From contig CALMKO010000292.1 of assembly GCA_937867415.1 (NCBI GenBank), positions 1 to 42,719 on the forward strand: 42,719 nt of DNA. The letters are read 5' to 3'. A model generated the notes under the pieces. That model made no database searches and had not been told where the DNA came from. It saw only the letters and a program-made list of their open reading frames with translations. Made by a program: the position numbers and the translations under genes. The number at the start of each line of letters is the position of its first letter. Within the stretch, counting starts at the first letter, position 1. This document shows, piece by piece, positions 28,048-42,525 of this stretch. Source of the DNA: an uncultured Verrucomicrobiota bacterium (GTDB lineage: Bacteria > Verrucomicrobiota > Verrucomicrobiia > Verrucomicrobiales > Akkermansiaceae).

Positions 28048-29955
28048 ATGAACCACCAAACACACGTCACCTGTAAAGTTCTTCCTTTCCCCGTTCCATT
28101 CGAAGCCGCAGCATTGCTCGATGCCGCGCGCTCCGTCACGGTGGCCACCACCAGCCACGAGTTGGTGGAGCTATCCGTGCGCGACGCCGTCGATGGCTGG
28201 CACGAAGTCTCCTATGACGTCCCCGGCATGGGCAATGTGGTTGAGGCGCGCGTCTGCCGGGTTCGCAATGGCATCAATGCGAACTATCCCGATGCCTACA
28301 TGCGTCGGCGCGATCCGGACTGCATGGTCATCGGCGATCAGCTCCCCACCGACAAGCCCACCTATCAGGAGCGCTTCGGCAAGGATTTCGCCTCGGTCCG
28401 TGAGGAAACTTTCGAGTGGATGAAATCCCAGGACCTCGCGGTCTTTCCGTTTCATGCCGGTATGGAAGGAAAGGGCACGGACGCGCTGGTCATCGCGCCG
28501 GCAAATGCGGGATTTTTCGCCCTCGGCCTCTCCATGCTCCAAGGCATCCTGACTCCCGCAGAAATCCCGGCAGGCTTCACCCCGCACGCGGTGATCTACG
28601 TGGCTCCACCATTTCGTCATACCCATTTCGACGGGCAGCAGGTGGTCGTTCACAACCGGCTTTCCTCCGCCCACGAACTATTCAGCTACAATCTCTACCC
28701 AGGGCCAAGCGCCAAAAAAGGCATCTATGGGGTCTTGCTCAACATCGGCGAGGCCGAGAACTGGGTCACCATGCATTGTTCGACTGTCCAGGTCATCACG
28801 CCCTATGATAACAAAATCATCATCTCCCATGAAGGTGCCAGTGGTGGTGGAAAGAGCGAAATGCTTGAGCACGCCCACCGCCAGGCCGACGGATCCCTCT
28901 TGATCGGTAGAAACATCATCAATGGTGAAAAACGGCTTCTCACCCTGCCGCGCGCCTGTGACTTGCGGCCCGTCACGGACGATATGGCGCTATGCCATCC
29001 CACCTTGGAGAAGGGGGCGGGTAAACTTAGTCTGATGGATGCCGAAGATGCCTGGTTCGTCCGCATCAATCATATCAATCACTATGGGATCGACCCCCAT
29101 TTGGAGAAACTTACGATTCACCCGCCCGAGCCGCTTTTGTTTTTAAACGTGCAGGGGCACCCGGGGGCCACCTCGCTGATCTGGGAGCACACCGAAGATT
29201 CGCCCGGCGTGCCGTGCCCGAATCCCCGGGTGATCATTCCTCGCCGCATCGTCCCGAACGTGGTCAAAGGGGCGGTGGATGTGGACGTCCGCAGCATGGG
29301 CGTGCGCACGCCGCCATGCACTGCGGATCTTCCGAGTTATGGAATCATCGGGATATTTCACAAGCTACCCCCTTCGCTCGCATGGCTTTGGCGTTTGGTC
29401 GCACCGCGTGGCCATGCCAACCCGAGCATCGTCGCCACCGAGGGCATGTCCTCGGAAGGCGTGGGCTCCTACTGGCCTTTCGCTACAGGCCGCCGTGTGG
29501 ACCAGGCGAATCTCCTGCTCACCCAGATCATCGAGACCCCGGAAGTCAGCTATATTCTCACTCCAAATCAGCACGTGGGTGCCTGGGAAGTTGGATTCAT
29601 GCCGCAGTGGATCACCCGTGAGTTCCTCGCCCGTCGCGGAGGTGCGCGATTTACCGAAAAACAAATGAAGCCATCTCGTTGCCCGTTGTTAGGTTACACA
29701 CCCAGCTCCATCGTGATGGAAGGCCGGACGCTCGGGGTATGGTTTTTCGAGGTGGACCAGCAGCCGGAGGTGGGCACCGCCGCATATGATCGCGGGGCGG
29801 AAATGCTCGAGGAGTTTTTCCATCAGGAGTTATCCCAGTTTCTCGTTGCTGACCTGCTGCCGCTCGGTCGCCAGATCATCGAGTGTTGTCTTTCGGGAGG
29901 AACGCTCGCGGATTACGATGGTTTGCTGGGTATTCCTACCTTGGAGCCTTCGTGA
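28048..29955 (+). CDS. DUF4914-type protein with PEPCK-like P-loop
   Basis: The 635-residue cytoplasmic protein has no signal peptide. I recognise it tentatively as DUF4914, a family of unknown function. Near residue 263 it has GASGGGKSEMLEHAHRQ, a Walker A-like loop in the place and style of phosphoenolpyruvate carboxykinase. Other conserved-looking blocks are MVIGDQLPTDKPTYQERFG near 94, FPFHAGMEGKGTDALVI, HINHYGIDP, and TGRRVDQANLLLTQIIE with TPNQHVGAWEVGFMPQW near 500. These resemble a nucleotide- or phosphate-transfer enzyme rather than a structural protein, but the reaction is unknown. ATG 28048 follows a divergent PocR-AraC regulator, and the sugar operon and glycan enzyme surround it, so a role in carbohydrate metabolism is a fair guess. 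Confidence 0.65.
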   Translation: MNHQTHVTCKVLPFPVPFEAAALLDAARSVTVATTSHELVELSVRDAVDGWHEVSYDVPGMGNVVEARVCRVRNGINANYPDAYMRRRDPDCMVIGDQLPTDKPTYQERFGKDFASVREETFEWMKSQDLAVFPFHAGMEGKGTDALVIAPANAGFFALGLSMLQGILTPAEIPAGFTPHAVIYVAPPFRHTHFDGQQVVVHNRLSSAHELFSYNLYPGPSAKKGIYGVLLNIGEAENWVTMHCSTVQVITPYDNKIIISHEGASGGGKSEMLEHAHRQADGSLLIGRNIINGEKRLLTLPRACDLRPVTDDMALCHPTLEKGAGKLSLMDAEDAWFVRINHINHYGIDPHLEKLTIHPPEPLLFLNVQGHPGATSLIWEHTEDSPGVPCPNPRVIIPRRIVPNVVKGAVDVDVRSMGVRTPPCTADLPSYGIIGIFHKLPPSLAWLWRLVAPRGHANPSIVATEGMSSEGVGSYWPFATGRRVDQANLLLTQIIETPEVSYILTPNQHVGAWEVGFMPQWITREFLARRGGARFTEKQMKPSRCPLLGYTPSSIVMEGRTLGVWFFEVDQQPEVGTAAYDRGAEMLEEFFHQELSQFLVADLLPLGRQIIECCLSGGTLADYDGLLGIPTLEPS

Positions 29956-29979: not shown

Positions 29980-32900
29980 TCAGGGATTCACCGCCTCCGA
30001 AGGAACGCCGATCCGGTAGAACAGGCAGCCGTCAACAACCGCCTCGCCCTGGGGGTGTTGTGACTCATGGAACTGAATCAGTTCCATGGCTTCAAAATAC
30101 CGGCTGGTGACGTGTTTCCAATCGACAAGGTTGGAGGACGACTGAAGGGTATAGTTCCCCGCCCTCGGGGCGGTCATGCTGACCGTGAGGTTTCCGGGTG
30201 TCCCTGTGAGGGAGGGACAGGGAGGGGTGGCCGCACTTGAAGGGGCCTCCGTCATGAGCTCGAAGGCCGCAGCAGCTGGCGGCGGTGGCACTGGCATGGT
30301 AAGTGCCGGATTCTCTTCAACCCGCACATGATCCAGCAGGAGGTCAAGCGCGTTGCTGGTGACCGATAGATCCCTGAATCGCAGGGTGGTGGATGCCCTG
30401 TCTGCCACGAAGGTAAATGATTGCGGCGACCACCTGATCAAGCCGCCTCCAAGACCGTTGAGGGTGATGCTCCGGGTGAGCAGGTCACCGTTACCGCTCG
30501 CCGTGACTTGCAGGGTTTGTGGCTCGGTGTTGTATGCGAGAACTCCCACGTCGAAACGCAGTGTATAGCTTTTGCCGGCATGGGTCGGGAAGGTCTGTGA
30601 CAGGATTCCGTTTGCTGGCTGGTTACTGGTGTTGAATGCCACCAATTGGGCTCCATCTCTCGCCGTGTAGGGTGCCGCCGACCTGAGATCGACATTGCCT
30701 TGGCTGGTCCAGGCGCTGAAGCCTGCTTCGAAGCTGCCGTTGCCGAGTGCACCTACCACCGGCTGATTCACCTCGATCGTCACGGTGGTAACCGCGGACC
30801 CCAACGTTGCATCAAAAGCGCGATAGGTAAACGAATCACTCCCTGTGAAGTTTGGCGCAGCAGTGTAGGTGAATCCACCCTCTGGATTCAAATTCACGAC
30901 CCCGTTCTGCGGACCCGTCTCGATGGCCGCTCTTAATGGGTTTTGCTGCGCGTCGCTATCATTCTGCAGCACACCGGGAGCCGCAATGACGAGCGGTGAA
31001 TTCGCTGTCGCCACGTAACCGTCGGCCACGGCGATCGGGGCGGTGTTGGGAACATTCGCCGCCTGGCTGATGCGGACGTGATCCAGCAACAAATCCAGCG
31101 CGGCGGTCGAGCTTGAGAGGTCCCGGAACTGAACCAGCGCTGAGGTGCCATCCGCCACAAATGTGAAGCTCTGGGGAATCCAGCGGTTGCTGCCGTTGCC
31201 CGTGCTGGTGATCGTGATGGTGCGCGAAAGGAGATTACCTGTGCCTGTGACTGCCACCTGCAGGGTCTGTGAGTTGGTGTTGTAACCCAGCACGCCGGCA
31301 TCGAAGGCGAGTGTATAGGTTTGCCCAGGGAGGGTGGAAATGGACCGGGAAAGAACTCCGTTAGGGATAAGATTGGAGTGGTTGAACGCCACGAGCCTCG
31401 TCCCTTCGGTTGCTGAATATGGCAGGGCTCCCTGAATGGCAAGGTTCCCTGTGGTTGTCCAGCCGGTGAATCCGTTTTCAAAGCCTCCATTGTCAATCGA
31501 TGCCGCAGGTGCCTCGCTGATTCTGAGGGTTACGCTGACCGGTTCCGAATTCAAACGTCCGTCACTGGCTTGGTAGCTGAAGCTGTCCACACCTGCAAAA
31601 CCCGCCCGCGGGGTATAGATGAATCCGCCACCCGGGTTCAGCACGAGAATGCCATTGCTTGGTTCATCCACAAGCACGGCCTTGAGTGGGTCGGATTCGG
31701 AATCCGTATCATTGCCAAGAATGCCAGGGGCGGGTATTGCCAATTCCGTGTCCATTTGCATGGTATAGCTCTCCGCCAAGGCGGCTGGCGCCGTGTTGAC
31801 GACCTCGGGCAGCGGGGAGTAGGAGGCGATGATTGCCTCCTGCCAACGATTCGCCATCCATTGAAAGCCGATTTCATTCGGGTGGACCCCATCCGGGTGC
31901 AAGCCGTCTATGGGGAAACCTGAGTTCAAGTCTGCCAGATGAATGTTTCTACCAGCCGCCCTGAGGTTGGTGACGATCGTGGTCAGTTGAGCGTTATAGG
32001 TATCGACATTCGCTTGGTAAGGCGAGCGAGAGGGAATGATTTTGGCGACAAGCAACTTGCTTTCCGGTCGGAGGTTCGTGATTTTGGAAACAAGGTTTTG
32101 AAGGCGTGTCTCCACTCCAGTCAGGTTGCTGATCTCGGTGGTTCCTATGAGCATGAGAATGAGATCGGGAAACAAGGGCGCCCGCCCGGTTTCATTTCCT
32201 CCCGTAAGCCAGTGCCCTCCGTTTGGATTTCGATCCGGTTCACCGAATCGAAGAAAAGTGCTGTTGTCAAAACCATCGAGATTGTTGAACACATCAAGCA
32301 GAGTATAAGACGAATGCCCTTCATGATGCCGCTGGTCAATCGGAAGCGTGGGAAGGGAGCCTGGTCGTTCGCGTGACGAACCTACAAAACGGAAGTCTTG
32401 AGCGACGTCGAGAAGTTGATTGTAGAGGTATCCGCGGTATCCCGCATTGCTTCCGGTCGATCCCACGGTGATCGAATCTCCCAATGGCATGATCTGGATG
32501 CCGCTTGGGATGACATTGACTGAAATTCGAACCGTCGCGATGTTCGAGTCCAACCTGCCGTCATTCGCTCGATAGGTGAATGAATCGCTTCCGCTGAACT
32601 CCGGGGCTGGAACGTAGGTAAAGCCACCGTCCGCATTCAATGTTACGTTTCCGTTGCTGGGAGGAGTGTGGATTTTTGCGGTCAGCGCATTGAGTTGCTC
32701 GTCACGATCATTTGCGAGCAACGCGGCGGAGGCTAGGGTAAGGGTGCGGTTTCTCAGCGTCGCATAAGCATCATCCGCCGCGATTGGGGCGGTATTAACC
32801 TGTTCTCCAGCGGTTGACACGCGAACATGATCGAGGAGCAGGTCGATTGCCGCTGTGTTGGTCGATTGATCCTGGAATGCAAGTGTGGTCGATGGGCTGT

Positions 32901-35900
32901 TAGCCGTGAAATAAAATTGCTGGGGAATCCACTGGTTGCTACCTCCACCGCTGCCGCGGAGCGTGATGAGTCTTGAGTGAAGCACACTCGCTCCCGTGGC
33001 GATCACCTGCAGCTGTTGTTGGTTCGTGTTGTAGGCCAGCACCCCGGCGTCGAAGCTGACGGTATACGTCTGCCCCGGGGTGGTGGCGAATGTCTGGGAA
33101 ATGCTGCCGTTGGGAATCAGGTTGCTGCTGTTGAATGCGGCGAGTCTTGTTCCTTGGGTGGGTTGATAAGGTGAGGCCCCTTGCAATGCCACGTTTTGAC
33201 TGACTGACCATCCGGTAAAGCCTGCTTCGAAGCTTCCATTCACGAAGGCGACAGGTGCAACGGGACCTGATGGCGCAGGAACCACGGTGATGCTGACGCT
33301 CGTGGTGTTCGACGTCAATGTCCCGGCGATCGCTCGGTAGCTGAATGAATCACTCCCGCTGAAATTCGCCCTGGGGGTATAAATGAAGCTGCCGTTAGGG
33401 TTCAGGATGAGCGTGCCATTGGCGGTGCTTGTCACGATTGCCGCGGTTAGCGGGAACTGTGACGAATTCGTGTCATTGAGCAAAATGCCCGCTCCTTGGA
33501 TGGAGAGAGATGTTCCTTGGGGGACTTGATAGGAATCCACGACTCCCTGAGGTGGTGTGACCGGTGCCTCACCCATCTCGGTAAGCCGGATCTGGTCGAG
33601 GACCAAATCCAATCCCTGTGTGGTGGTCGAGCGATCCTGAAAAGTCGCTGTTGTGAATGACTGGTCGGCGGTGAAGGTGAATGACTGGGGAAACCAGCGG
33701 CTTGCTCCGCCGCCAACACCATTGATGGTGATACTCCTCGACAGGAGATTGTTCCTGCCGTGGACATCAAGTTGAAGGGTCTGAGAGTGGGTGGTGTAGG
33801 ATAACACCCCTGCGTCGAACTGAATTTGATAGATTTTTCCGGGAGTCGTGGCAAACGATTGGGAAAGTGTGCCATTGGGGTTTCGATTTGCCGAGTTGAA
33901 TGCGACAAGCTTGCGTCCTTCGGTGGCAGAGTAGGGGGCTGACGATTGGATGTTCAGGTTTCCCGTCGTGGTCCAACCTTGGAAATCATTTTCAAAACCG
34001 CCGTTTGCGAATCCTCTCGCAGTGATCGTGACGAGTAATTCGTCGCGATCCTGCAATCCGTTATGATCGGTAACCGTCAGGGTGATCCGATGCTCGCCGA
34101 TGGGTAAATCAAAGGTCGGCTGCACGCCGCTGCCGAGAATGGTTTCGTTCCTTGACCAGCTGTAGGAACTTATCGGGTGGATGCCTTGCCGGGTCGCGTT
34201 GGCATTGAGGGTCACGTTTTCAGATCCGCTGAGATCCTGGTCGGTTTGGGTGAGGTCGGGCCCGGCATCGGCATCCGGGCCGACCCTCGGCACCAGGTTG
34301 AACGAGATCCAGTTGACCGCCGCAGAGTTGGTGCCTGAGGGCATGGAAGAAAATGTCATTCGGAGCACATGCTTGCCCGGGCTGATGTTGATCTCGGGCG
34401 TGGAAAGGAGCTGCCATCCCACCTCGTCTTCTGTCGCAGGGATCAGAGTCCCTGTGCTGATGTCCTGGCCGTCGATGGCAAAAGTGACCTGTCCCCCACC
34501 GCCTGCGTTGATGAACCGCATGTCGATGGTATATCGATCATTTTCTGGGTGGTCGAAGGTATACTCTAACCATTCGCCACTTTCAATTCCGGTAAGATCG
34601 AATCCGCCATCTGAATCACTTGTAGGCTTGAGATCCACTGCTTCGGTGGCTCGATGGAATCCGCCTTCGTTCTCGGGGGTGAGGTCATGATAGGCAACAC
34701 CCTGGCCTCCGCGGTCGAAGTTCTCTGCCTGAATCACGGCGGGGATCCGCACAGGGTTTCCTTCAAATGGGATGTTTTCAAGAAACGAGGTCTCGCTCAC
34801 TTCGATACTCGTTCCTGATTCATTGCCCTGCTGATCCACGGCTGTCACCACATAGGAATAGGTGGTGCCCGCGGCCAGTGATGGATCGGGAAAGGCGGTT
34901 TCGCCAACTGGTAGGATGGCGATCCGGTTGTTTTCGCTGATGCTTACCGTCGGTCGATCCGAGCGGTAAATATGATAGAACGCGACGTCATCCGCAGGGC
35001 TTGGATCCCAGGAAAGCTGGATCGAGCCGTCAGGTTTTGCGGAGGGAATGAAGCCACTTGGAGCGGGTGGGGGAGTTCTGTCGCCTTCACCGACGCGGTC
35101 GATTCGGAGGGCGACATCCTCCTGGTAAACAACCGTTGCAAGCGTATGGTTTCCACCTGGATGAGTGAATTCCTCGGTCCGGAGTGTGGTTCCATCGACC
35201 GGGCGGGTCCAGACGGCCTTCCAATTGCCGGCGGGTAGATCGATGGTAAGGGCCGCGTTTTGGTTGCCCGCGTCAATGGGATCGTAAAACAGCTGGAACT
35301 GGCCACCGCTGCGACCGTGATGTAGGTAGGCGACGTATTGCTGTCCCGGGCTTGCCATGGCCTGTAAGGTCGCGCCTTGGGGGATCCCGCTCTTTACCCA
35401 GGCAAGGTTGCGCCTGAGGGCTACGAGGTGGAGGCGATCCATGTAGGTTCCGATGTCCCGCACGGGTTTCCTGAATTCGCGGCCGAGCTCGGTATCTCCT
35501 GCCTCGTTGGTGTCAGTGTAGATAAACAGTGGAATATCCAATCCGTTGTAGATGCCTCCTCCGCCCAGCAGGAACATCCACGCCTCCAAACGGGTTTGGG
35601 CGGGAGTCAGGGTGTTCGTTTCGTCCAGCGCCAGAATCTTCCCGCGGAAGTAGTGGTCGCTTAACAGCGCCTCAGCTCCTGCAATCTTCGGATCAGGCGC
35701 GGTTGCAACGATCACGGCGGGATAGTGCTCGTTGATCACGTCGAAATCAGCTGAGAGGGCGTTGATCTGTTGGGGGTAGTTGTGGGAGACCAGATGGCGG
35801 TTGGGTAACGTGGATTCTTCTTCACGGATGATGGCGAGCATGCGGTTGTGAAATTCGACCTCCTCGTCATCCTTCACAGTGGCCTCATTCCAGAAAGGTT

Positions 35901-36585
35901 CGTTTTGAATCTCGAAGTAAACGTTGTCGAAGCGGTTCGCTACCTTGACGATGCGGCGCACCGCAGCTTCCTGCGCCGCGAAAAGCTGGGCATCGACGAT
36001 CCGGTGGCTGTCGTGGCGATTGGTCGGTCCTACTCCCTGGACGTTGTTTGCCGGATTGAATGGACTGGCACGCCAGAAGGCTGGGTCATCATAAAATGCA
36101 CAGAAAAACGAAAGTTGCACCACCACGCCCCGGTCGCTGCTGGCTTGGAGGAAGCTTTCCAGGCGGGTGAAGTATTCTTCGTTCCAAGCGGAGAAATCCC
36201 ACTTGCCCAGGCCATCGAGGGCGTTTCCCCGGGTAGTGACTCGTTGCCAGGGTTGCAAAAACTGACTCGCGTCAGGCGAAAGCGGGCTCCGGGCGGTGGA
36301 CGTAACGCTCTTGTCGAGCCTGAAACCCAGAAGGAACACCCGGGTTAGATTCATTTCATCCCGCTTGAGAACATCCAGATAGGGGACAAAGTCGAAGCTG
36401 GAGTTGATAACTGAACTGTAATGCTCCGCAAAAGTCCGGAGAACGGTAGGCTGGCCTCGAAACTCAAGGATATACGGATTCTCAGGATGCGCTCGCAATG
36501 GCTCGTGGGCACTCAACTCGGACGAAATCGCGCCCGAAAGCAGACCCAACACACACCCACCACGAAGCAAAGCCAGCAATTTCAT
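29980..36585 (-). CDS. Giant secreted multidomain glycan-active protein (GH-A-like, CBM6-like, SGNH, repeats)
   Basis: This 2201-residue protein has a signal peptide (residues 1-27). Residues 28-490 resemble a clan GH-A glycosidase with the acid/base candidate in EIQNEPFW (Glu near 229) and nucleophile candidate in LALDETNT (Glu near 322). An FN3 domain (502-597), a CBM6-like domain beginning AVIQAENFDRGGQG (612-766) and a PKD-like domain (768-855) follow. The rest is four copies of a 145-residue FENGFTGW module (859-1005, 1114-1260, 1695-1842, 1945-2090) and four of an 88-residue cadherin/tandem-95-like module (1015-1102, 1268-1356, 1603-1690, 1852-1939). An SGNH esterase-like domain (1360-1592) with PLGDSITVGS and DGVHPNEIG sits in the middle. 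The tail ends in YTLQSSSNLVDW and FYRIG, common in verrucomicrobial exoproteins. It likely acts outside the cell on acetylated plant or algal polysaccharide; the substrate is unknown. Confidence 0.8.
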   Translation of the reverse strand: MKLLALLRGGCVLGLLSGAISSELSAHEPLRAHPENPYILEFRGQPTVLRTFAEHYSSVINSSFDFVPYLDVLKRDEMNLTRVFLLGFRLDKSVTSTARSPLSPDASQFLQPWQRVTTRGNALDGLGKWDFSAWNEEYFTRLESFLQASSDRGVVVQLSFFCAFYDDPAFWRASPFNPANNVQGVGPTNRHDSHRIVDAQLFAAQEAAVRRIVKVANRFDNVYFEIQNEPFWNEATVKDDEEVEFHNRMLAIIREEESTLPNRHLVSHNYPQQINALSADFDVINEHYPAVIVATAPDPKIAGAEALLSDHYFRGKILALDETNTLTPAQTRLEAWMFLLGGGGIYNGLDIPLFIYTDTNEAGDTELGREFRKPVRDIGTYMDRLHLVALRRNLAWVKSGIPQGATLQAMASPGQQYVAYLHHGRSGGQFQLFYDPIDAGNQNAALTIDLPAGNWKAVWTRPVDGTTLRTEEFTHPGGNHTLATVVYQEDVALRIDRVGEGDRTPPPAPSGFIPSAKPDGSIQLSWDPSPADDVAFYHIYRSDRPTVSISENNRIAILPVGETAFPDPSLAAGTTYSYVVTAVDQQGNESGTSIEVSETSFLENIPFEGNPVRIPAVIQAENFDRGGQGVAYHDLTPENEGGFHRATEAVDLKPTSDSDGGFDLTGIESGEWLEYTFDHPENDRYTIDMRFINAGGGGQVTFAIDGQDISTGTLIPATEDEVGWQLLSTPEINISPGKHVLRMTFSSMPSGTNSAAVNWISFNLVPRVGPDADAGPDLTQTDQDLSGSENVTLNANATRQGIHPISSYSWSRNETILGSGVQPTFDLPIGEHRITLTVTDHNGLQDRDELLVTITARGFANGGFENDFQGWTTTGNLNIQSSAPYSATEGRKLVAFNSANRNPNGTLSQSFATTPGKIYQIQFDAGVLSYTTHSQTLQLDVHGRNNLLSRSITINGVGGGASRWFPQSFTFTADQSFTTATFQDRSTTTQGLDLVLDQIRLTEMGEAPVTPPQGVVDSYQVPQGTSLSIQGAGILLNDTNSSQFPLTAAIVTSTANGTLILNPNGSFIYTPRANFSGSDSFSYRAIAGTLTSNTTSVSITVVPAPSGPVAPVAFVNGSFEAGFTGWSVSQNVALQGASPYQPTQGTRLAAFNSSNLIPNGSISQTFATTPGQTYTVSFDAGVLAYNTNQQQLQVIATGASVLHSRLITLRGSGGGSNQWIPQQFYFTANSPSTTLAFQDQSTNTAAIDLLLDHVRVSTAGEQVNTAPIAADDAYATLRNRTLTLASAALLANDRDEQLNALTAKIHTPPSNGNVTLNADGGFTYVPAPEFSGSDSFTYRANDGRLDSNIATVRISVNVIPSGIQIMPLGDSITVGSTGSNAGYRGYLYNQLLDVAQDFRFVGSSRERPGSLPTLPIDQRHHEGHSSYTLLDVFNNLDGFDNSTFLRFGEPDRNPNGGHWLTGGNETGRAPLFPDLILMLIGTTEISNLTGVETRLQNLVSKITNLRPESKLLVAKIIPSRSPYQANVDTYNAQLTTIVTNLRAAGRNIHLADLNSGFPIDGLHPDGVHPNEIGFQWMANRWQEAIIASYSPLPEVVNTAPAALAESYTMQMDTELAIPAPGILGNDTDSESDPLKAVLVDEPSNGILVLNPGGGFIYTPRAGFAGVDSFSYQASDGRLNSEPVSVTLRISEAPAASIDNGGFENGFTGWTTTGNLAIQGALPYSATEGTRLVAFNHSNLIPNGVLSRSISTLPGQTYTLAFDAGVLGYNTNSQTLQVAVTGTGNLLSRTITITSTGNGSNRWIPQSFTFVADGTSALVQFRDLSSSTAALDLLLDHVRISQAANVPNTAPIAVADGYVATANSPLVIAAPGVLQNDSDAQQNPLRAAIETGPQNGVVNLNPEGGFTYTAAPNFTGSDSFTYRAFDATLGSAVTTVTIEVNQPVVGALGNGSFEAGFSAWTSQGNVDLRSAAPYTARDGAQLVAFNTSNQPANGILSQTFPTHAGKSYTLRFDVGVLAYNTEPQTLQVTASGNGDLLTRSITLNGLGGGLIRWSPQSFTFVADRASTTLRFRDLSVTSNALDLLLDHVRVEENPALTMPVPPPPAAAAFELMTEAPSSAATPPCPSLTGTPGNLTVSMTAPRAGNYTLQSSSNLVDWKHVTSRYFEAMELIQFHESQHPQGEAVVDGCLFYRIGVPSEAVNP
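30320..34010 (-). repeat. Eight-module repeat array within the giant gene (four A and four B modules)
   Basis: Reading along the gene the order is A1 (34008-33570), B1 (33540-33281), A2 (33243-32808), B2 (32780-32517), SGNH domain (32505-31810), B3 (31775-31515), A3 (31500-31060), B4 (31030-30770), A4 (30750-30320); borders are approximate. A modules share a start like NGSFEAGFTGW, an AFNxSNxxPNG block, an FDAGVLxYNT block and an LLLDHVRV end, and are probably jelly-roll carbohydrate-binding or adhesion modules. B modules share ANDRDxxxNPL, a GGFTYxPxxxFSGSDSFTYRA core and a T-V-x-I end. The DNA copies have diverged, so recent slippage is unlikely. Confidence 0.8.
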
Positions 36586-42039: not shown

Positions 42040-42525
42040 TCAATGAAGGACGTTGCCCGCCGTTGAATGAGCGGCTTGTTCGGTATCCATTCCGAACTTA
42101 CGATAGCCTCGCTCTAAATCTCGAATCTCTTGCCTTCCGATAGTAATCAGTCCCTCGTCAGCTTGCCCTTTGGCAGTCTTCAAAATGGCTCGCATACGGT
42201 CTCTCGCGTCCTTAACGAGATCCCAGCATTGATCGTCGATGTTAATACAAGCATTGAGGAGATCCCCATCATAGTGTTCCGTCTCGATCCATGGATTCGT
42301 CTCCAATAGATTCAGAGCCTTTGGGAGTAGATAGACTGTGCCAACGTCCTGCACCAAGCAAACACGCACTTCATCTGCGGTGAAATCACGCAGAAACTTG
42401 TTCCGGATCGCATGTATCTTCTGGATGAATCCTGCTTCTGACTCTGTGATCTCGAAGTCAGAAATCTGTCCTAGCTCGATGAGCGAAAGGTAGTCAGCGC
42501 TCTTTAGATGCTTTGGCCTAGTCAC
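42040..42525 (-). CDS. CDI immunity-like protein (CdiI_2-like), orphan
   Basis: The 161-residue cytoplasmic protein has the shape of contact-dependent growth inhibition immunity proteins: an N-terminal helical part, then RNKFLRDFTADEVRVCLVQDVGTVYLLPKALNLLE, where the family shows a leucine-rich LIGQ..G..YLIPLALE pattern, then the acidic YDGDLLNACI motif and a helical tail. These proteins bind and block a toxin nuclease. No CdiA/Rhs toxin gene lies beside it in this window. The DNA is visibly more AT-rich than the housekeeping genes, suggesting acquisition by transfer. Family assignment is from pattern memory and is moderate. Confidence 0.5.
   Translation of the reverse strand: MTRPKHLKSADYLSLIELGQISDFEITESEAGFIQKIHAIRNKFLRDFTADEVRVCLVQDVGTVYLLPKALNLLETNPWIETEHYDGDLLNACINIDDQCWDLVKDARDRMRAILKTAKGQADEGLITIGRQEIRDLERGYRKFGMDTEQAAHSTAGNVLH

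Follow-up and report, generated by a model that had tools for sequence, protein, structure and literature searches.

A multi-modular protein of an uncultured Akkermansiaceae bacterium joining a predicted, divergent GH-A glycosidase domain to an SGNH domain with an altered block III

The contig CALMKO010000292.1 (assembly GCA_937867415.1), from an uncultured verrucomicrobial bacterium of the family Akkermansiaceae, was analysed over a stretch of 42,719 nucleotides (hereafter the window), which carries on its minus strand, at 36585..29980, an open reading frame (ORF) for a protein of 2201 residues, free of internal stops. The protein is probably a large multi-modular carbohydrate-active enzyme of a familiar kind, the core of which belongs to an uncharacterised glycosidase family. 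Its modules follow the order signal-like N-terminus, glycoside hydrolase (GH) clan A domain, fibronectin type III (FN3), CBM6, PKD, A-B-A-B, SGNH, B-A-B-A and a C-terminal domain, with boundaries taken from hidden Markov models (HMMs) built from the protein's own sequence together with Pfam and NCBIfam scans. We read it, with a probability of about 0.6, as a secreted glycan-degrading enzyme with a catalytic GH-A domain and an impaired SGNH domain, which would act jointly with a separate GH29 protein of the same genome (C407) on a fucose-bearing, ester-decorated polysaccharide. The GH-A enzyme is the surest part of this reading, the impaired SGNH domain comes next, and the fucosylated substrate is the least sure. 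A preliminary description of the window had reported the ORF, which is real and uninterrupted, and the order of the repeat modules around SGNH, which our HMMs reproduce; it gave neither the strand nor the FN3, PKD-like and C-terminal domains, and did not note that an SGNH block III asparagine is lost.

The N-terminal GH-A domain and its family

The features that carry the argument for a glycosidase are as follows.

29980..36585, minus strand: whole gene, 2201 residues (ATG at 36585, TGA at 29980-29982)
36508..36585, minus strand: residues 1-26, signal-peptide-like N-terminus, judged from the sequence
35092..36507, minus strand: residues 27-498, predicted GH-A glycosidase domain (DUF6298-like family, divergent clade; profiles, model, alignment)
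35899..35901, minus strand: codon of E229 (NEP, end of barrel strand 4), candidate acid/base, invariant in 89/89 rows
35620..35622, minus strand: codon of E322 (DETN, barrel strand 7), candidate nucleophile, invariant in 89/89 rows

Judged by the appearance of its N-terminus, the protein is probably secreted. Enzymes of clan GH-A use two glutamates as acid/base and nucleophile, and the candidates singled out in the preliminary description, E229 within QNEP (residues 227-230) and E322 within DETN (residues 321-324), hold up well, being present in all rows (81/81 and 89/89) of two alignments that include the studied protein. An AlphaFold2 model of residues 24-500, computed from an 81-row alignment and compared with solved structures by Foldseek and VIA-align, has a mean predicted local distance difference test score (pLDDT) of 89.2 and a predicted template modelling score (pTM) of 0.92. 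Model and PDB matches both give a (beta/alpha)8 GH-A barrel with a C-terminal sandwich, in keeping with the GH-A-like fold first proposed. In the numbering of the model E206 (E229) follows strand 199-205 and E299 (E322) lies within strand 294-300, which are barrel strands 4 and 7 when counted from the model's secondary structure. The N-terminal domain is thus modelled as what is probably a GH-A glycosidase, with a conserved candidate catalytic pair; it would be the working catalytic unit of the protein, cleaving a glycosidic bond by double displacement with E229 as acid/base and E322 as nucleophile.

The closest solved folds are a GH140 apiosidase, BT_1012 and GH5 mannanases, at 11-13% identity. 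The apiosidase 8t9w shares both the barrel and the C-terminal beta sandwich (Z 29.4 over 381 residues at 3.1 Å), but identity is 12% and the sequence profile matches only the C-terminal part, weakly (E 0.0015). BT_1012 (5msy), which we take to be a GH140 enzyme, superposes on nearly the whole domain (Z 27.4). The Pfam family Apiosidase (PF13204) gave no match in the GH domain at E<=0.001 or in the whole protein at E<=1, and matches one of the 81 family members, not the studied protein. GH5 enzymes, ManDH5 and fungal GH5 mannanases, share the fold and the two-glutamate active site, and Pfam Cellulase matches 54/81 members at E<=0.001; the studied protein, however, scores 13.6 bits against a Cellulase cut-off of 23.5, and ManDH5 is only 12-13% identical. 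DUF6298 (PF19815) matches 52/81 members and the studied protein marginally (28.4 bits, gathering cut-off 28.1, 108/487 positions aligned). The top PDB match of the family profile is the putative glycoside hydrolase BVU_0362 (4n0r, E 4.5e-6), although only about 60 profile positions align. Assignment to a single CAZy-linked family was attempted and not reached, Pfam across the 81 members giving no one family.

Matches to the GH domain occur in 27/288 genomes of the phylum and in 10/73 of the genus (own genome included), two of these ten holding short pieces only. Among named genomes 476 relatives were confirmed in 515 candidate stretches, of which the best 80, at 31-36% identity, come from Planctomycetota, Acidobacteriota, Verrucomicrobiota, Armatimonadota, Bacteroidota, Bacillota and other phyla. 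In a quick tree with support from the SH-like approximate likelihood ratio test (SH-aLRT), the studied protein groups with rows from the congeners G458, G439 (twice) and G427 in a clade of five (SH-aLRT 100, branch of 1.42 changes per column), the remaining GH rows of the genus falling elsewhere within the family. There are 32 positions, each conserved in 85% or more of 83 other rows, at which every one of the five clade rows carries a different residue or a gap; they include the surroundings of NETGF and the subsequent GHEDGT...PGGG loop. The long-branched row CG465 was excluded from the 83, yet is among the 89 checked for the two glutamates. By sequence, then, the family of the GH-A domain is widespread and uncharacterised, and the clade within it that includes this domain is divergent and, as far as seen, confined to this genus; a shift of substrate within the clade is plausible.

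The neighbourhoods of the best 80 relatives were rejected as evidence on substrate, since all-against-all clustering of 689 ORFs showed no partner to predominate. Leaving aside the GH cluster, the commonest clusters occur in 10, 9, 9 and 7 loci; that in 10 loci is an ORF on the opposite strand which overlaps the GH gene and is probably spurious, and one of those in 9 loci resembles a sulfatase from the look of its sequence. Separately, the GH gene of one G439 clade member (L179 5817-10856, minus strand) directly adjoins secA, and secA also lies in the studied contig (11465-14647, plus strand), about 15 kb from the gene; chance or old synteny could explain this.

Substrate: fucose or arabinose

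The case for fucose begins with C407, a protein of 1720 residues from the same genome, which is built of A-B-A-B, a GH29 fucosidase domain, CBM6, PKD, A-B-A and the same C-terminal domain as the studied protein. In G458 (L176) a single ORF of 3079 codons, with its first methionine at codon 17, corresponds to residues 1-1590 of the studied protein (52% identity) followed by residues 425-1719 of C407 (57%), with Laminin_G_3 between them. The Pfam family Alpha_L_fucos is found in both the fusion and C407, and the SGNH domain of the fusion is intact (GTND). On these alignments G458 carries in a single protein the two halves, GH-A/SGNH and GH29, that are separate proteins in the studied genome. Misassembly or a contig break was considered as the origin of the separate GH29 half and rejected, as both the 2201-residue ORF and C407 start and stop inside contigs. 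Because GH-A, SGNH and GH29 are joined in one G458 chain, a fucose-bearing target is favoured, and a fucosylated, esterified glycan appears a better guess at the substrate than an arabinose-containing one.

In the studied genome 30 rows match GH29, each of them over the cut-off, although some are two rows of one ORF; there are also one Fucose_iso_C match (152.3 bits) and 13 sulfatase rows, 12 of which exceed the cut-off. The genome measures 4.9 Mb, and five of its GH29 rows lie in open frames longer than 1000 residues. Across the 73 genomes of the genus the median number of GH29 rows is 12.5 in the 10 with the GH family, partial pieces in G419 and G446 counted among the ten, and 1.0 in the other 63, counts that saturate with about 24 candidates scored per genome; among the 49 genomes of at least 3.1 Mb the medians are 12.5 and 5.0. 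A size-stratified permutation, which ignores phylogeny and in which the size of G460 was entered as 2.9 instead of 3.0 Mb, gives p 0.029 for this association. Fucosidase-rich Verrucomicrobiota have been reported, Akkermansiaceae genomes there carrying up to three GH29 each (PMC8857213).

Several points weigh against the fucose reading. The association is limited by the saturation of the counts, the inclusion of partial pieces and the disregard of phylogeny; the fusion is a single case in a single genome, that of G458, where just 3 GH29 rows occur; the GH29 domain of C407 aligns only with profile positions 78-335 of 345. For the GH-A family, literature searched by the name DUF6298 alone gave neither an assay nor a described function, and its bond and sugar are putative. 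An arabinose operon moreover lies nearby, the CBM6 finds its best PDB match in that of the arabinoxylanase CtXyl5A (2y8k/5la2, 8.1e-18), and, as a point for arabinose, 13 rows of the own genome match GH43, 12 of them above the cut-off.

A more far-reaching version, which we put forward as speculative and rather doubtful, would make the GH-A domain the divergent arm of an unrecognised multi-phylum family that cuts the backbone of a fucosylated polysaccharide, in this genus built together with GH29 and an SGNH deacetylase into a one-chain line, present as a fusion in one species and as separate proteins in another; once separated, the SGNH domain would have lost its oxyanion hole and become a binding module in an A slot of the repeat array.

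The last three points speak for the interpretation along the lines of the preliminary description, a bifunctional glycosidase and acetylesterase whose substrate would be an acetylated glycan with arabinose (arabinan, arabinoxylan or arabinogalactan) and which would serve the adjacent arabinose operon. The genes araB (ribulokinase), araA and araD and a sodium symporter gene occupy 20.8-26.8 kb on the plus strand, some 3-9 kb from the studied gene, and are followed by an AraC/PocR-type regulator and a DUF4914 protein (28048-29955, plus strand, 1037.5 bits). The studied gene, however, lies beyond regulator and DUF4914 on the opposite strand, convergent with the DUF4914 gene at a distance of 24 bp, and is neither same-strand contiguous with araBAD nor an operon partner. 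Nor were ara genes present among the 10 ORFs scanned beside the GH loci of three congeners. CtXyl5A (GH5_34-CBM6-CBM13-Fn3-CBM62) does combine a GH-A glycosidase with CBM6 and Fn3, but its glycosidase is of another family and the module list given for it is without SGNH, DUF642 or tandem-95 modules (PMC5063996). Since the CBM6 of CtXyl5A is reported to stabilise the GH5 module (PMC5063996), the CtXyl5A-like CBM6 here says little about ligand. The acetylesterase half of the proposal is further opposed by the loss of the SGNH oxyanion asparagine. The link to arabinose is thus supported neither by gene order nor by relatives, and the arabinose reading is weak; we consider it unlikely. What survives of the earlier proposal is a multi-modular enzyme acting on a glycan, consistent with the GH-A fold and the conserved glutamates, without the acetylated arabinose glycan or the connection to the operon. 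Elsewhere in the window, an ORF at 42040-42525 (minus strand), near the edge of the stretch, matches the contact-dependent-inhibition immunity protein family CdiI_3 (63.5 bits, cut-off 28).

The repeat modules and the C-terminal domain

Apart from the GH-A and SGNH domains, the protein consists of the following modules.

34756..35091, minus strand: residues 499-610, FN3 (PF00041 25.0 bits, cut-off 25; own HMM)
34282..34752, minus strand: residues 612-768, CBM6 (Pfam 48.5 bits, cut-off 28.9; PDB 2y8k/5la2, 8.1e-18)
34012..34281, minus strand: residues 769-858, PKD-like domain (PKD_4 19.6 bits, below the cut-off of 27; own HMM)
33583..34005, minus strand: residues 861-1001, A1, DUF642/choice-of-anchor C (Pfam, NCBIfam, own HMM)
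33283..33558, minus strand: residues 1010-1101, B1, tandem-95/cadherin-like (Pfam, NCBIfam, own HMM)
32818..33240, minus strand: residues 1116-1256, A2 (Pfam, NCBIfam, own HMM)
32518..32799, minus strand: residues 1263-1356, B2 (Pfam, NCBIfam, own HMM)
31519..31800, minus strand: residues 1596-1689, B3 (Pfam, NCBIfam, own HMM)
31069..31491, minus strand: residues 1699-1839, A3 (Pfam, NCBIfam, own HMM)
30769..31050, minus strand: residues 1846-1939, B4 (Pfam, NCBIfam, own HMM)
30319..30741, minus strand: residues 1949-2089, A4 (own HMM; the stretch folded is 30316-30753)
29983..30318, minus strand: residues 2090-2201, C-terminal domain, common to other proteins of the same genome (own HMM)

The Pfam and NCBIfam families at or over their cut-offs are Big_9/Cadherin/tandem-95, DUF642/choice-of-anchor C, CBM_4_9, AlcCBM31, CBM6, CBM_35_2, SGNH/GDSL, fn3 and DUF6298, and the CBM6 match bears out the CBM6-like region of the preliminary description. 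The repeats are no chance resemblance, their scores lying well above the curated cut-offs, as in proteins composed of these two module types: DUF642 reaches 104 bits (cut-off 27) and TIGR04362 189.6 bits (cut-off 120) over four stretches, and tandem-95 190.4 bits (cut-off 90), likewise over four. An extra weak B row at 2060-2129 (27 bits), overlapping A4 and the C-terminus, was discounted. The order of the array had been taken as mirrored, AB AB then BA BA. The order stands, but a mirrored duplication was rejected; A copies are 51-61% and B copies 40-54% identical, mirror-image partners are not favoured, and because copy identities show no mirror pattern the arrangement is better described, from sequence comparison, as strict A/B alternation in which the SGNH domain occupies one A slot. 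This enzyme-like domain in an A slot, and the absence of a C-terminal anchor family from its Pfam and NCBIfam matches, distinguish the protein from the DUF642/TIGR04362 kind with tandem-95 repeats.

Comparison of the A modules with CBM families had a mixed outcome. A model of A4, built from the four copies in the studied protein (pLDDT 82.2), resembles CBM61 (Z 14.4) as well as CBM4 and CBM16, and the Pfam matches to CBM_4_9 and AlcCBM31 fall on A modules; but the model also resembles the meprin MAM domain (Z 14.0) and gingipain adhesins (Z 13.6), and jelly-roll domains of Cry proteins take the top five Foldseek places. An A profile gave no match among PDB sequences at E<=1. The A modules likely bind sugar, a prediction from the model against which the resemblance to MAM, adhesin and Cry jelly rolls has to be set. 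Together the CBM6 and the four DUF642 jelly-roll modules would keep the enzyme on an insoluble or particulate glycan, while the FN3, PKD-like and tandem-95 modules would act as spacers.

The same array could instead suggest a chiefly adhesive cell-surface protein, in which the DUF642/tandem-95 modules attach to a glycan or to the surface of cells and the enzymatic domains amount to minor or relic cargo. Two siblings in the genome consist mostly of such arrays with an N-terminal SGNH domain: C294 (L041 4414-16791, minus strand; 4125 residues, 15 A and 13 B modules) and C249 (L042 3850-15390, plus strand; at least 3847 residues, reaching the contig end, 9 A modules). Some A copies of C294 look near-identical by eye. 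The fold of A, shared with gingipain adhesins and MAM domains, would suit adhesion, and the name choice-of-anchor C (TIGR04362) implies pairing with anchors. Among the Pfam and NCBIfam matches of the 2201-residue protein there is no C-terminal anchor family. Against a mainly adhesive role, the catalytic glutamates are invariant in 89/89 rows, and two members of the GH clade, G439b (571-codon ORF) and G439a (739-codon ORF), have no A or B module by HMM; because they do without, the array appears dispensable to the GH domain. We therefore regard a mainly adhesive role as improbable, and prefer the glycan-degrading enzyme.

The C-terminal domain, which no Pfam or NCBIfam match covers in the studied protein, carries a motif Y..Q.S..L..W...FYR that recurs in the own genome in 37 rows at E<=1. 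In 17/30 inspected loci (L207-L236) the match stops no more than 12 codons before the stop codon, or in 10/23 when the 7 loci that seeded the model are excluded. The domain may be a sorting or secretion tail.

The SGNH domain

Four features concern this domain.

31819..32502, minus strand: residues 1362-1589, SGNH domain, CE3-like (Pfam, PDB match, own HMM, alignment)
32473..32475, minus strand: codon of S1371, block I serine, present (alignment)
32137..32139, minus strand: codon of T1483 (ACC), at the position of the block III oxyanion-hole asparagine of homologues (alignment)
31882..31893, minus strand: codons of D1565 to H1568, block V, present (alignment)

Pfam recognises the domain as Lipase_GDSL (29.7 bits, cut-off 23.6) and Lipase_GDSL_2 (32.9 bits, cut-off 32.9). 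Blocks I (GDSIT, with S1371) and V (DGVHPN, with D1565 and H1568) are present as first described, and the block II glycine is kept (HHEGHSS), as among homologues. Block III, by contrast, reads GTTE rather than GTND, T1483 replacing the oxyanion-hole asparagine. This residue is asparagine in 29/29 other aligned homologues, rows of the studied stretch excluded, in an alignment from which L152 was dropped as too short; the SGNH domain of C294, not among the aligned sequences, also reads GTND. So do both closest relatives, C311 from the same genome (59.5% identity) and the G458 ortholog (60.2%). According to PMC9487903, the block III asparagine is strictly conserved and its replacement by alanine abolishes activity, as in other SGNH hydrolases. 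Because this asparagine is lost, esterase activity is doubtful, and the sequence suggests that it is probably impaired, the domain being weak or inactive; the working esterase implied in the preliminary description is thereby called into question.

The nearest solved systems are the CE3 esterase CtCes3-1 (2vpt; CtCes3, placed in CE3 in PMC9487903), which matches over the SGNH domain with a phmmer E of 2.4e-18 and with blocks I, II and V kept, and the acetyl esterase 5b5l/5b5s. The studied domain differs from CtCes3-1 in the loss of the block III asparagine and in some 30 extra residues ahead of block III. It departs from columns invariant in five close homologues at 10/78 positions, compared with 0/68 for G458, 2/70 for C311, 5/73 for G215, 10/78 for G388 and 9/77 for G335. 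The domain would derive from a CE3-like carbohydrate esterase that lost its block III asparagine, and may have been retained for binding or structure. It is very unlikely that its chemistry has switched instead, making it an acetyltransferase or supplying another oxyanion-hole donor in place of a plain hydrolase: S1371, D1565 and H1568 are retained and transferase families with divergent oxyanion holes, independent of the block III asparagine, are described (PMC9487903), but those families compensate with other residues, the domain is otherwise CE3-like with its block II glycine in place, and the 10/78 departures fit relaxed constraint, if weakly, since the distant rows G388 and G335 reach 10/78 and 9/77.

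Most modules of the protein are of known types, and its interest lies in a glycosidase family with hundreds of relatives for which we found no assigned activity. The natural pair of a fused and a split form ties this GH-A family to an alpha-L-fucosidase and opens a direct way to identify the substrate. The altered SGNH domain, standing alongside an intact homologue in the same genome (C311), likewise provides a ready test of the role of the block III asparagine.

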